33,143 nt of DNA, from contig JAQGHD010000004.1 of the NCBI GenBank assembly GCA_028288965.1, forward strand, positions 1 through 33,143, written 5' to 3'. Below, piece by piece: positions 27,382 to 32,571 of this stretch. This DNA is from Candidatus Saccharimonadota bacterium (GTDB taxonomy: Bacteria > Patescibacteriota > Saccharimonadia > Saccharimonadales > JAQGHD01). The notes under the pieces were generated by a model. That model worked only from the letters and a program-made list of their open reading frames with translations, made no database searches and was not told the origin of the DNA. Positions within the stretch are counted from its first letter, which is position 1; each line of letters opens with the position of its first letter. Both the position numbers and the translations under genes were made by a program.

Positions 27382-28302
27382 CTACAGTCCCCGAAAGACT
27401 CCGTGGCTGGTTGGCGTAAGGTTGAGTAGCTCGCTCACCGTTACAAACCGGTATTTGCCCGCTAGATCGCTCAAGATTTTATCAATCGCTTGAGCGGTTA
27501 TGACTTTGTCGTGCATGACAATCAAGGCGCCGGGGCGAACTTGAGCTTCTACGATTTGTGCAACATGAGCCGGGTCGGGCTGCGACCAATCCTTGGGGTC
27601 AACATTCCATAAAATAATGGGCAGGTTAATCCGGCTGATAGCCGTGGGATTAAGCGCGCCGTATGGTGGGCGAAATATATGAGGCGGCGCGGCGCCGGTG
27701 GCAGCGATGGCCGCTTGGGTGCGATCAATTTGCGGCTGGATTTGATCTGGCGCAATCTTGGTAAAAAACGGGTGCGTCCAGCTATGGTTGCCTATATCGT
27801 CCCCATCCATGTGCATGCGCTGCACCAAAGCGGTGTTCGTAGCAACGTGCACACCAATCAGGAAAAAACTGGCATGAGCGCCATGTTTTTCTAAAGCGCT
27901 TAATATAATCGGGGTTGAATCGGCGGCCGGCCCATCATCAAACGTTAAGGCCACGCAAGCCTCTATGGCGCAATTGGGTGAAGTCGGCGTGGCGGCCTCC
28001 GGGGGCTTAGTGAGCTTACTCAGCAACATACTGGACAGCGGATCATGGGGCGTTAGTTGCCGCTCGATGGGACCGGGCTCAGCGGTGCTTATACCAGCCA
28101 CGTGAGTATGATTGACTGTTTGAACCGAGACAGAAGGTGGACTAATGCTCACTGTTTTAACGGCCGTGTGTGGCAGAAGCGCGACGCTTAAAGCTACCGC
28201 TGCAAGGCTATATAGCACTAGCTTAGGCACCAGAAAAATTTGGGCCGGCGGCACTGGCCCATACCGGTTATCCCATAGCCGAGACGAATTAACTACCCTC
28301 AC
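27382..28302 (-). CDS. Polysaccharide deacetylase (NodB domain), N-terminally anchored
   Basis: TM 'LVLYSLAAVALSVALLP'; 'VALTFDDGPAADSTPIIL', 'IGNHSWTHPFF', 'FRPPYGALN', 'GALIVMHD'. Confidence 0.95.
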   Translation of the reverse strand: MRVVNSSRLWDNRYGPVPPAQIFLVPKLVLYSLAAVALSVALLPHTAVKTVSISPPSVSVQTVNHTHVAGISTAEPGPIERQLTPHDPLSSMLLSKLTKPPEAATPTSPNCAIEACVALTFDDGPAADSTPIILSALEKHGAHASFFLIGVHVATNTALVQRMHMDGDDIGNHSWTHPFFTKIAPDQIQPQIDRTQAAIAATGAAPPHIFRPPYGALNPTAISRINLPIILWNVDPKDWSQPDPAHVAQIVEAQVRPGALIVMHDKVITAQAIDKILSDLAGKYRFVTVSELLNLTPTSHGVFRGL

Positions 28303-28398: not shown

Positions 28399-29418
28399 CT
28401 ACAAACGGCGGGACTTGCGCCGGCCGGTTTCAAATAGGTAGGTTATGGCGTAGCGTAGCTGGTTGATGGGTAGGTCATGGGCCGGCAGATAGGCTACGTC
28501 TTCCCCGCCAAAGCCTCGTTTAAAAACCGATACGCCGTAAAAACGATGTTTGGTTTGACCGTGCTCGGCGACTCCCCAAAAATTATACCGCTGACAGCCA
28601 CGCCGGCGAGCCTCAGCAATGGCCGCTTGCTGGATGGCGTAGGCACCGGGAAATTCACGAGCCAGGTCGGTGCTGGCGGCATAATGATAGGCCGCCTCCG
28701 GCCCATAGAAAATGATAAAGGCCATGGCCAGTAATTTGTCCTGATAGGTGGCCCGGTACATCAGCACTTTGTCGGCTTCTGCTAAAACTTTGAATTGTTC
28801 ACTTAAAAACTTTTTAGAAAACGGTACAAAATGGTGACGCTTAGCAGTGGCCAGCTGCAAATCACAGAACTCCTCCAGATAGATTGGTTCTTTGGTGGCA
28901 CTCACCTGGATGCCCAGTTTATGAGCCCGATTGAGTTCGTAGCGGGTGCCTTTACGCATAGCTTTGCGCAGTTCATCATCGGATTTACTAAGATCTAGCT
29001 GGCTGGTCAGATCGGCGGTGACGTGCATGGGAGCTTCATTAAAGCCCAGTTCCTGAAACAATCTTCGGTTCTCCTTAGTATCCAGTAGCTGCGGACGCAC
29101 CCGGACAAATAGGCAATTGTGCTGCTTAGCAATGGCCCGAACTTCACGCACCCAGGCATTCACAAGCGCTTTGTTATTCCAGTCAATGATCGGGCCGCCC
29201 GGCACTACCATATGGCGGCCGCGCTTGGCCGGCTCTACTACCGCCAACAACACTCCCACCAGTTGGGAACCGTTATAAAAGCCGCGGCGCTCCACTACCT
29301 TGCCTAAACGGGCATGGAATTCGCCCCAATACCAGGAGTGCAAAAAGTTGGCCTCCGGGTGCTTAGCCATAAAGGCTTCCCAACTGTTTTGCTCTTCAAC
29401 TGGTTTGACGCTAATCAT
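28399..29418 (-). CDS. FemAB/FemX-like peptidyltransferase (GNAT-like)
   Basis: 'NFLHSWYWGEFHARLGKVVERRGFYNGSQLVGVLLAVVEPAKRG...AMRKGTRYELNRAHKLGIQV...RRGCQRYNFWGVAE...FKRGFGGE'. Confidence 0.92.
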   Translation of the reverse strand: MISVKPVEEQNSWEAFMAKHPEANFLHSWYWGEFHARLGKVVERRGFYNGSQLVGVLLAVVEPAKRGRHMVVPGGPIIDWNNKALVNAWVREVRAIAKQHNCLFVRVRPQLLDTKENRRLFQELGFNEAPMHVTADLTSQLDLSKSDDELRKAMRKGTRYELNRAHKLGIQVSATKEPIYLEEFCDLQLATAKRHHFVPFSKKFLSEQFKVLAEADKVLMYRATYQDKLLAMAFIIFYGPEAAYHYAASTDLAREFPGAYAIQQAAIAEARRRGCQRYNFWGVAEHGQTKHRFYGVSVFKRGFGGEDVAYLPAHDLPINQLRYAITYLFETGRRKSRRL

Positions 29419-30599
29419 GCCTTAGACTCCAACCACGCATTAATGTGCTCGGCAATGGCCCGGGCCTTTTTTTCACTCACGTGAATATGAGTAGGCAGAT
29501 TGACCATCCTAGCTGCCACGTATTCAGCATTCGGGCACTCCCCCTTTTTATACGTAGTTTGTTTTAAAACTTGTCTGGGGGCTACCGCTATCGGCGCATC
29601 ATACCAGCGGTCACTTAAGTACACGCCGTAGTGGCGAAGCTGGGCAATGAGCTCTAAGGGCTTGTCTACTATAATTGGAAAGCGCAGGTACACCGCCGTA
29701 TCATCATGGCTAAACTGCAGGGTGCTTGGCAGCCATTCTCTATAGACAGCTGCAATCCGCTGGCGGTGCGCAATAAGCTCAGGTAGTTGCCCGTAGGACT
29801 GCAGAGCAATATGACTATGCCAGCTCGGCAACTTATGAGCTGGAGTAGCCGCACCACTCATCGGACCAGGGAGCAACTTAGTGCTTTTCATAAGTTTCAA
29901 AATCACCCGTCCTATCTGCAAGCGGATGGTCTGGCGAATCAACCATGTTGCCCAAGGATAAAGCCGGGTCGTAAAGCGGTGGCCTAGAGGGGCCGAAGCA
30001 AAGTTCGGTTGAATTTTGGATGCCCAGTATAATACCGCTGCCCCACCGGTAACGGCATCAATCATTTTGTCTTGGCTAAAAGATAGAGCCGCCGCCGCGC
30101 CGACGGTACCGGCTTCTTGGCCGCTAGAGTAACTCATGCCGATACTGTGGGCTAAGTCTTCTACAAGCGGCACTTTATATTCTGCGCACAAAGTTTTAAT
30201 TTTTTGAATATCGGCTGGCATACCTAGGGTATTTTGGATCATCACGGCATTAATTTTGGGTGAGCCTTTCAAAGCCGCGCTTAATCGTTCGGCGGTAAAG
30301 TTCAATTGGTTTTTTTCTATGTCCAGGTAAAGTGGCTGTAAGCCGGCCTGGGTAATAGCTTCGTAGACGGCATAGCAGGTATAACCGTTAATGGCCACCG
30401 AGCTGCCTTTTGGCAGTTGGAGTTGTTCCAGGGCAAGCGCAATTGCTTCGCGGCCTTTATACGTTAGGTACACTTCTGGCGCGCGGTAATGCTGTTTTAA
30501 ATAAGCCTGCAGCCTGGCCGGGGCCTTGGCATCACTGCCTAGGCTATACGCACCGGAGCGTTTGGAATAATTGGAGCCCAGCGAGTTAAAAATATTCAC
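29415..30599 (-). CDS. DegT/DnrJ/EryC1-like PLP-dependent aminotransferase
   Basis: 'VYLTYKGREAIALALEQL..GSSVAINGYTCYAVYEAI...VPLVEDLAHSIG...AALSFSQDKMIDAVTGGAAV'. Confidence 0.88.
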   Translation of the reverse strand: MNIFNSLGSNYSKRSGAYSLGSDAKAPARLQAYLKQHYRAPEVYLTYKGREAIALALEQLQLPKGSSVAINGYTCYAVYEAITQAGLQPLYLDIEKNQLNFTAERLSAALKGSPKINAVMIQNTLGMPADIQKIKTLCAEYKVPLVEDLAHSIGMSYSSGQEAGTVGAAAALSFSQDKMIDAVTGGAAVLYWASKIQPNFASAPLGHRFTTRLYPWATWLIRQTIRLQIGRVILKLMKSTKLLPGPMSGAATPAHKLPSWHSHIALQSYGQLPELIAHRQRIAAVYREWLPSTLQFSHDDTAVYLRFPIIVDKPLELIAQLRHYGVYLSDRWYDAPIAVAPRQVLKQTTYKKGECPNAEYVAARMVNLPTHIHVSEKKARAIAEHINAWLESKA

Positions 30600-31297
30600 G
30601 GCTGGACCACCTTAGCAATGATTTGGGCGACCTTTTGCGGGTGAGTAGCCATAGGCGCATGCCGGGCCCCCTCCACCACAAACAATTTAGCGCCACGAAT
30701 TTTGCGCCGCATCAGCCGGCCGTCACGCAGCGGCGTTGTGCTATCATTGCGCCCCCAGACCAGCGTAACAGGGGTCTTAATGCTCCTGAGGTGAATGGTT
30801 TTATCAGCCGCCAGCATGTTGGCCATGGTTTTTTTCATGTTAGGCGGTGCCTGCTCATAGTCACGGGCGCCAATGATTTTATAGAAAACCCGGCGGACAC
30901 CCGGGACGCGCTTAACCGGTTGGCCGAGCTTGGACACTCCGCGGAGGGTTTTGAGTTTTAATTTGGCTGTTAGGTAGTGGTCGTTTGGAATACCGGCGCT
31001 ATCAATAAGGATTAACTGTGCCAGACGTTCGGGGTATTTTTGGGCGTAGGCTAGGGCAATGCGTCCGCCGTTGGAATGACCGATGACAATGGGGTGCTCT
31101 TCGCCCTCTAGCTGCTGGTCCAGCCACGCCATATAGCTGTCTATATCCCAAACTTTTTTACTGCGGCTAGCCAGTCCCGGCACCTTTAGTTGCACCGGCC
31201 GAAACCCTTCTTTGGTCAGCAAATCGGTAATCACCGTCCATTTTTCTAAGTTATAGGTCCAGCCGTGAATGATAAATAGCTTCTGCGTTGGCTCCAT
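30596..31297 (-). CDS. Alpha/beta hydrolase
   Basis: 'IIHGWTYNLEKW', nucleophile elbow 'GHSNGG', 'LIDSAG', 'VWGRNDSTTP', catalytic-His region 'VEGARHAPMATHP'. Start reassigned to ATG 31297, overlapping the upstream TAA. Confidence 0.92.
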   Translation of the reverse strand: MEPTQKLFIIHGWTYNLEKWTVITDLLTKEGFRPVQLKVPGLASRSKKVWDIDSYMAWLDQQLEGEEHPIVIGHSNGGRIALAYAQKYPERLAQLILIDSAGIPNDHYLTAKLKLKTLRGVSKLGQPVKRVPGVRRVFYKIIGARDYEQAPPNMKKTMANMLAADKTIHLRSIKTPVTLVWGRNDSTTPLRDGRLMRRKIRGAKLFVVEGARHAPMATHPQKVAQIIAKVVQP

Positions 31298-32571
31298 TAT
31301 AGTCCCCAGCCTTTGCGCCGTTTTTGCCACAGGGGTTCACGGCGCACTAACTTAGCGGCATCGGTTTTATCAGCCAGTAAAGTCTCGATTACCCCTTCCA
31401 GAAAACGTACGCCCTTGAACATAATGATTTCACCGCCCTGCAAGTGCTCATGAATATAATCTCGCACTTCTGTAGGCTTTTCAAAAACAGCAATGTTAGT
31501 GCGCGCTTTTAACTCAGCGCTGAGGGCCGGCCAGGCGGCCGCTTTTAAGCGCGGTCCTTCTAAAATAATCTGTTCAAAATGAGTGTTATTGAGTAGTTCA
31601 GCTATCTTTTGATGCTCACGGGCTTCATCTTGGCCCTGCTCTTGCATGTCGCCTACCACTAACCATTTGTGCTCGGCCGGCAAGTCAGACAGCAGGTCGA
31701 TAATGGTTTTCACACTTTCGACGTTGGAGTTGTTGTAGGTGCTATCAATAATGGTGGTGTTCTTAATGCCCTTGTAGACGTTGCTGCGGCCGGGCGGCAG
31801 TTCAAATTGCTTATAGGTGTAGTCGGGCGCTAGTTTTAAGTGCGACATCAGTTGGTCAGTCATGGCCACTTGGTAGTATGTGGCCCGGGGAACAAGCGCT
31901 GGCACCGTATATTGTTTATCCTTAAACCCAAAGGTGGTTTGAGCGGCCGTCAGTTTGTAAACCGACAGGTCTTTTAGGGCTACGGTTTGAATAGCGCCTT
32001 TGGAGCGCTTGGCTTGATCGACCATTAAGGGATTATCGCCATCAATCACCACTAATTCCCGGGTCTCGGCAATCAGGTTGCCGTAATCATAGGCAATAGC
32101 TTCTTCGACTGTTTTAAATTGCCCGGCGGCCACTAACACATCGAACTGGGCGGTGTGGGTGTGCAAGGCGCTGACCCACAGCGTGATGTCCGGTTGGAGC
32201 AGGGTGCCCAGAAAGGCACCTTCTTTGGGCCGGTCGGTATCCACTTCGGCCACATACAATTTTTGGGGATAGACTTTAGTGAATGTCATAAAAGGGGCTT
32301 TGAGGGCCAGCTTCACCCAATCTGCTCGCGAGCGAGTCACGCCCGGCAGGCCCAGGATATCAAACGGGATACCGAACGAACTGTTGGCATGGTGCGAATA
32401 GTGGGCCTGGGGCCCTAGCTGGGCCTCTAACAGATGTAGTAAGGTAGTTTTGCCGGCCGAACCGGTCACCACAATAATCTTGGGGTGCCATCGCCGGAGC
32501 TTTAAGGCCGCGAAGAATCGAAAATAACGAGCAACAATAAAGTATAACCGTCGCTTCAGAGAACGAACCAT
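31297..32571 (-). CDS. Mur ligase family protein (MurF-like, lacking the usual N-terminal domain)
   Basis: P-loop 'VVTGSAGKTTLLHLL'; 'HHANSSFGIPFDILGLPG'; 'VAEVDTDRPKEG'; 'IDSTYNNSNVESVKTIIDLL'; 'LVVGDMQEQG'. Confidence 0.88.
   Translation of the reverse strand: MVRSLKRRLYFIVARYFRFFAALKLRRWHPKIIVVTGSAGKTTLLHLLEAQLGPQAHYSHHANSSFGIPFDILGLPGVTRSRADWVKLALKAPFMTFTKVYPQKLYVAEVDTDRPKEGAFLGTLLQPDITLWVSALHTHTAQFDVLVAAGQFKTVEEAIAYDYGNLIAETRELVVIDGDNPLMVDQAKRSKGAIQTVALKDLSVYKLTAAQTTFGFKDKQYTVPALVPRATYYQVAMTDQLMSHLKLAPDYTYKQFELPPGRSNVYKGIKNTTIIDSTYNNSNVESVKTIIDLLSDLPAEHKWLVVGDMQEQGQDEAREHQKIAELLNNTHFEQIILEGPRLKAAAWPALSAELKARTNIAVFEKPTEVRDYIHEHLQGGEIIMFKGVRFLEGVIETLLADKTDAAKLVRREPLWQKRRKGWGL

Follow-up and report, generated by a model that had tools for sequence, protein, structure and literature searches.

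A FemAB-containing operon as a candidate Ddl-less counterpart of the murF-ddl module in Saccharibacteria

How can a bacterium with Mur enzymes and penicillin-binding proteins but no D-Ala-D-Ala ligase (Ddl) complete the stem peptide of its peptidoglycan? Peptidoglycan precursors almost universally end in D-Ala-D-Ala, which vancomycin, D-cycloserine, and beta-lactams target directly or by mimicry. The question is raised by a four-gene operon in a contig of 33,143 nucleotides (JAQGHD010000004.1, contig C23 in our numbering), the whole of which is called the window here; it belongs to a 916-kb genome of Candidatus Saccharimonadota that is 94% complete. The operon encodes a MurF-like ligase (MurF-A), an alpha/beta hydrolase, a DegT/DnrJ/EryC1 family pyridoxal phosphate (PLP) aminotransferase (DegT), and a FemAB/FemX-like transferase (FemAB) (Table 1). 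Replacement of the murF-ddl module of other Saccharibacteria by this operon is well supported. We tentatively read the operon as a third, Ddl-less version of that module, and the group attached by MurF-A may come from FemAB, mostly acting with DegT; taken as a whole, this reading falls a little short of being probable. Each protein family is already known, and the Ddl-less module is new as far as tested; neither the operon nor a loss of Ddl in Saccharibacteria was found described in the open-licence papers searched. Precursors ending in D-Ala-D-Lac or D-Ala-D-Ser have been speculated for candidate-phyla bacteria (PMC8651080).

Distribution of the operon and of Ddl

A 74-sequence tree resolved MurF-A (clade A) and a second form, MurF-long, as monophyletic groups (100/100 each), and the remaining sequences are referred to as MurF-B. 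Clade A (E below 1e-80) and Ddl (PF07478, E≤1e-15) were compared in 255 genomes of the order, all chosen for a completeness of about 90% or higher. Clade A was present in 80 of them, and it is spread over seven families when genome G011, outside the 255, is counted. Ddl was found in 2 of the 80 clade-A genomes versus 156 of the 175 others (Fisher 2e-44, a descriptive value that ignores kinship). Within family f35, Ddl occurred in none of 74 genomes with clade A and in about 50 of 62 without it, the latter denominator being drawn from partial lists. The genome of the window gave no PF07478 match, and several clade-A genomes gave no Ddl match whatsoever, including G055 and G106, which are rated 100% complete, and G144, which is a single contig. 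Genome incompleteness was therefore rejected as the cause of the loss for the group. The weak Ddl matches in the clade-A genomes examined mostly fit other ATP-grasp families better, with the exception of G155. Alanine racemase (PF00842) was found in merely 20 of the 255 genomes, though most carry Ddl, and D-alanine may be scavenged.

In relatives, a hydrolase-MurF-long-Ddl module or MurF-B, often with Ddl, is located shortly before leuS and three further genes (w24077, w23586, and w22878). The same leuS-side slot holds MurF-A-hydrolase-DegT-FemAB in the window and at loci L180, L192, L193, and L206. Both the A and the long modules include the hydrolase; in the A module, FemAB, generally accompanied by DegT, takes the place of Ddl. 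The clade-A loci of family f35 are mostly located elsewhere. Genus g82 is mixed: G126 and G132 have Ddl and alanine racemase, G126 also having a MurF-long-Ddl pair, while the other sampled members have the A operon. In G202 (C5:42214-44217), Ddl and MurF-B matches lie in one open frame of 838 aa, an apparent Ddl-MurF fusion, which ties MurF-B to D-Ala-D-Ala. A class-V aminotransferase gene stands between MurF-long and Ddl at L128:2572-3789 (G013), so that another module, too, has an aminotransferase next to MurF.

Dozens of genomes share the gene order, far beyond what chance would give, and a chance neighborhood was rejected. Forty-one loci with clade A, window excluded, were read by profile searches; they come from two genome collections, so a few may duplicate species. 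The hydrolase lies downstream of MurF-A in 40 of them (one a remnant), FemAB was found in 38, mostly as two genes, and DegT in 32, some of the absences being contig ends. A single FemAB is present in the window and likewise in the close relatives L192 and L193. At L180:4120-6870, DegT and FemAB are fused in one open reading frame (ORF) of 917 aa, and the hydrolase profile matches an overlapping frame just upstream. Profile searches of 27 murF/ddl regions without clade A found neither DegT nor FemAB. The window is assigned to the order of the Saccharibacteria because, among genomes that carry a name, every close match to clade A is from Candidatus Saccharibacteria. A preliminary description of the window, made from its sequence alone, had proposed a translationally coupled operon related to peptidoglycan or a surface polymer. 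The coupling and the link with peptidoglycan hold, as do the four minus-strand ORFs and their families, with which the Pfam matches agree. Of the two results that it named as refuting, a full-length MurF N-terminal domain and a lack of co-conservation, neither was obtained. Its junctions were correct for TAATG between ligase and hydrolase (31299-31295) and for the ATGA overlap of DegT and FemAB (29418-29415); the middle overlap, given as ATGA at 30596-30599, reads GTGA (30599-30596). The hydrolase likely starts at ATG 31297, which is favored because the resulting length is near the 226-232 aa usual in homologues. A promoter and terminator scan revealed nothing in excess of shuffled sequences, and an Rfam search gave no matches.

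Table 1. Positions of the operon genes and of two further ORFs in the window.
Feature	Length	Coordinates	Strand	Evidence
MurF-like ligase, clade A	424 aa	31297..32571	minus	TIGR01143 111.1 bits, PF02875 8e-12
Alpha/beta hydrolase	~233 aa from ATG 31297	30596..31297	minus	PF00561 2e-19
DegT/DnrJ/EryC1 family PLP aminotransferase	394 aa	29415..30599	minus	PF01041 3e-38
FemAB/FemX-like transferase	339 aa	28399..29418	minus	PF02388 6e-43
NodB-type deacetylase		27382..28302		
Cu/Zn superoxide dismutase-like ORF	174 aa	18984..19508		by eye, HAVHIHE stretch

The NodB-type deacetylase gene sits between the operon and leuS, and had been counted with the system in the preliminary description. It is absent from the other clade-A loci read and is also found beside leuS at L262, which carries other MurF modules. 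NodB was therefore rejected as an operon member and is assigned to the slot. Elsewhere in the window, a further ORF looks by eye like a Cu/Zn superoxide dismutase.

The ligase, the transferase, and their partners

MurF is the best profile match of MurF-A, though the score lies below the curated TIGR01143 cut-off of 288.6 bits, which was passed by none of the 61 genomes of the order examined. The AlphaFold model (pLDDT 93.3) has MurF 3zl8 as its best Foldseek match in the PDB (E 9e-21) and shows the middle and C-terminal Mur ligase fold with the ATP P-loop. The N-terminal UDP-MurNAc-binding domain is absent, as there is none in the model and PF01225 gave no match; instead, residues 2–28 form a basic helix running straight into the P-loop strand. 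Across clade A, the mean net charge of this stretch is about +8. The preliminary description had been right about the missing domain, and the confident model bears this out, but its novelty was rejected. MurF-B likewise lacks the domain, its place before the P-loop is taken in nearly all MurF-long proteins (loci L245-L262) by two or three hydrophobic segments of membrane-like character, and the MurE of the same genome (L001:1363-2661, contig C22), which scores far above the murE cut-off, is also devoid of it. The missing UDP-binding domain is a trait of the order, shared by all MurF forms examined. Nor is the P-loop (GSAGKTT) atypical, as had been thought: GSxGKT is essentially invariant in the MurF proteins of the order, and E. 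coli MurF reads GSSGKT.

Clade A retains the ATP site. It has fixed or near-fixed changes at positions conserved in MurF-B and MurF-long, namely G to D111, D to S277, and S/N to H283, although the window protein carries N at position 283. Neither a B-type nor a long-type MurF was found in the genome of the window, G011, G018, G045, or G055. In the genome of the window, MurE and MurD score above the curated cut-offs of their families; MurC is clearly identified, although it stays below its cut-off. An ORF resembling glutamate racemase by eye adjoins murD.

The AlphaFold model of FemAB (pLDDT 93.9) has a double GNAT fold, and its best Foldseek match is FemX 1xe4 (TM about 0.8), followed by aminoacyl-tRNA-dependent peptide synthases (TM about 0.7). 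In FemX, Lys36, Arg211, and Tyr215 are important in precursor binding, and the Phe-Lys pair is catalytic (PMC4964394). The catalytic pair (FemX Phe304-Lys305; Phe299-Lys300 in the window) is kept in all 71 operon FemABs. In the window protein, His35, Phe200, and Phe204 take the places of the three binding residues; the Lys36 equivalent is non-basic in 69 of the 71 operon FemABs and the Arg211 equivalent in all 71. FemABs encoded elsewhere in clade-A genomes have a basic residue at both positions in 4 of 8 cases. The residue loss points to an acceptor other than the FemX precursor.

In DegT, the PLP Schiff-base Lys178 and the pyridine-binding Asp148 are invariant in 16 homologues. Its best PDB sequence match is QdtB 3frk, and its closest relatives of known structure have nucleotide sugars and cyclitols as substrates. 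The hydrolase triad Ser86-Asp196-His224, numbered from a GTG start at 31330, is conserved in the family.

Proposed completion of the stem peptide and alternative explanations

In the proposed scheme, the stem tripeptide would be assembled in the ordinary way by MurC, MurD, and MurE, all present in the genome. MurF-A, which has a basic helix where a UDP-binding domain would otherwise be, would then add a terminal group, probably at the membrane by analogy with MurT. FemAB, usually with DegT, may make this replacement group, as position, co-occurrence, and residue loss suggest, and the hydrolase, common to the Ddl-type module, may be a MurF-associated editing or processing enzyme. What MurF-A attaches, what FemAB catalyzes, that the step takes place at the membrane, and what the hydrolase does are all inferred. 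A more specific form of the scheme, which we consider unlikely, has the stem peptide finished without D-Ala-D-Ala: FemAB would make an aminoacyl-tRNA-derived amide, DegT would often give the amine, MurF-A would attach the product at the membrane, and adapted penicillin-binding proteins would cross-link the different terminus. The preliminary description had suggested an undescribed pathway for peptidoglycan or a surface polymer; the connection with peptidoglycan is retained here, but the murF-ddl slot and the near-absence of Ddl in the carriers had been missed.

Several observations weigh against the Ddl-less module. The two exceptions among the clade-A genomes are G155, which encodes a divergent full-length Ddl-like protein, and G025, in which MurF-A coexists with MurF-long, Ddl, and alanine racemase and FemAB is absent, the A gene being on a 6-kb contig. 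Ddl is also absent from about 19 genomes without clade A. Since six loci of g82 and also G018 are without DegT, this gene is not essential, and the core of the operon is MurF-A, the hydrolase, and FemAB. Finally, penicillin-binding proteins are kept in clade-A genomes, with SxxK, SxN, and KTG intact in those read, and a matching loss of these proteins was not found. Penicillin-binding proteins normally imply a D-Ala-D-Ala-like donor.

Because intact penicillin-binding proteins need some cleavable terminus, salvage of D-Ala-D-Ala stays alive as the main alternative. MurF-A would then be an ordinary, fast-evolving MurF using D-Ala-D-Ala taken from the host, so that Ddl is dispensable, FemAB would build cross-bridges, and DegT and the hydrolase would have separate envelope roles. 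Cultured Saccharibacteria depend on a host, and alanine racemase is already missing in most of the order. Cross-bridge synthesis is, moreover, the classic role of FemABX enzymes (PMC4964394). However, the operon FemABs are without the precursor-binding Lys/Arg pair, while half of those elsewhere in clade-A genomes keep basic residues there, and salvage alone leaves unexplained both the exchange of Ddl for FemAB at one locus and the fixed changes in MurF-A. We regard this explanation as somewhat unlikely.

Production of an aminoacylated amino sugar or a similar surface decoration, with DegT giving the amine, FemAB acylating it, and MurF-A coupling it while Ddl loss is an unrelated lineage effect, is quite improbable. 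The substrates of the solved DegT relatives agree with it, as does the action of the FemABX relatives Sbb17 and Sba18 on streptothrisamine, but MurF-A is the sole MurF found in the closely examined clade-A genomes, several A loci are in the murF slot, nucleotide-sugar pathway genes are not conserved within the operon, and DegT is dispensable. A hidden D-Ala-D-Ala ligase, too divergent for PF07478 or unrelated, with an ordinary stem peptide that the operon merely decorates, is highly improbable: the G155 protein and the other ATP-grasp proteins of clade-A genomes speak for it, and the better fit of most weak matches to other families and the genomes devoid of any match speak against it.

If the Ddl-less module is correct, a large group of Saccharibacteria with Mur enzymes and penicillin-binding proteins and almost never Ddl would be a rare natural exception to the D-Ala-D-Ala rule, and the conserved operon gives candidate genes for Ddl-less peptide finishing. 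The findings also suggest that this order carries out the MurF step with no UDP-binding domain, perhaps on precursors already linked to lipid. Operon-carrying strains make both proposals testable.

Comparison with known systems

Compared with MurF, the window ligase retains the middle and C-terminal ligase domains, the P-loop, and the best fold and profile match, and Glu109, His139, Arg262, Asp276, Tyr279, and Asn281 are conserved. It differs in having neither the UDP-MurNAc-binding domain nor a Ddl partner, in its profile score (111 vs 288.6 bits), and in the clade-wide changes. MurT of the GatD/MurT complex, likewise devoid of the N-terminal domain, has lipid II as its substrate; there, such a domain would probably collide with the membrane (PMC6113224). 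It shares with MurF-A a Mur ligase core without that domain and may serve as a model for a lipid-linked substrate. However, the operon has no GatD-like gene, and MurF-A is closer to MurF in sequence and fold and contains no Cys, so that the Cys4 zinc site of the MurT type is absent; a MurT/GatD identity was therefore rejected.

The operon FemAB shares the double GNAT fold and the invariant Phe304-Lys305 equivalents with the bridge transferases FemX, FemA, and FemB. It differs from them in the loss of the Lys36 and Arg211 equivalents, in adjoining MurF where Ddl is usual, and, like Weissella FemX, in having no helical arm. FemABX relatives include aminoacyl-tRNA-dependent peptide synthases that form amides from aminoacyl-tRNA and small amines (PMC12945691). 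Those of antibiotic pathways (DhpH-C, VlmA, PacB, and Orf11; Sbb17 and Sba18) are a good fold match to the operon FemAB (TM about 0.7), and their amide synthesis on small amines may be a likeness in reaction as well. They belong to secondary metabolism, are not beside MurF, and are less similar to the operon FemAB than FemX in both sequence and fold.

The closest counterpart by position is the hydrolase-MurF-Ddl module of other Saccharimonadales, which shares with the operon the leuS-side slot, a MurF, and a homologous alpha/beta hydrolase. Its MurF-long has two to three hydrophobic segments, and it carries Ddl where the A operon has DegT and FemAB.

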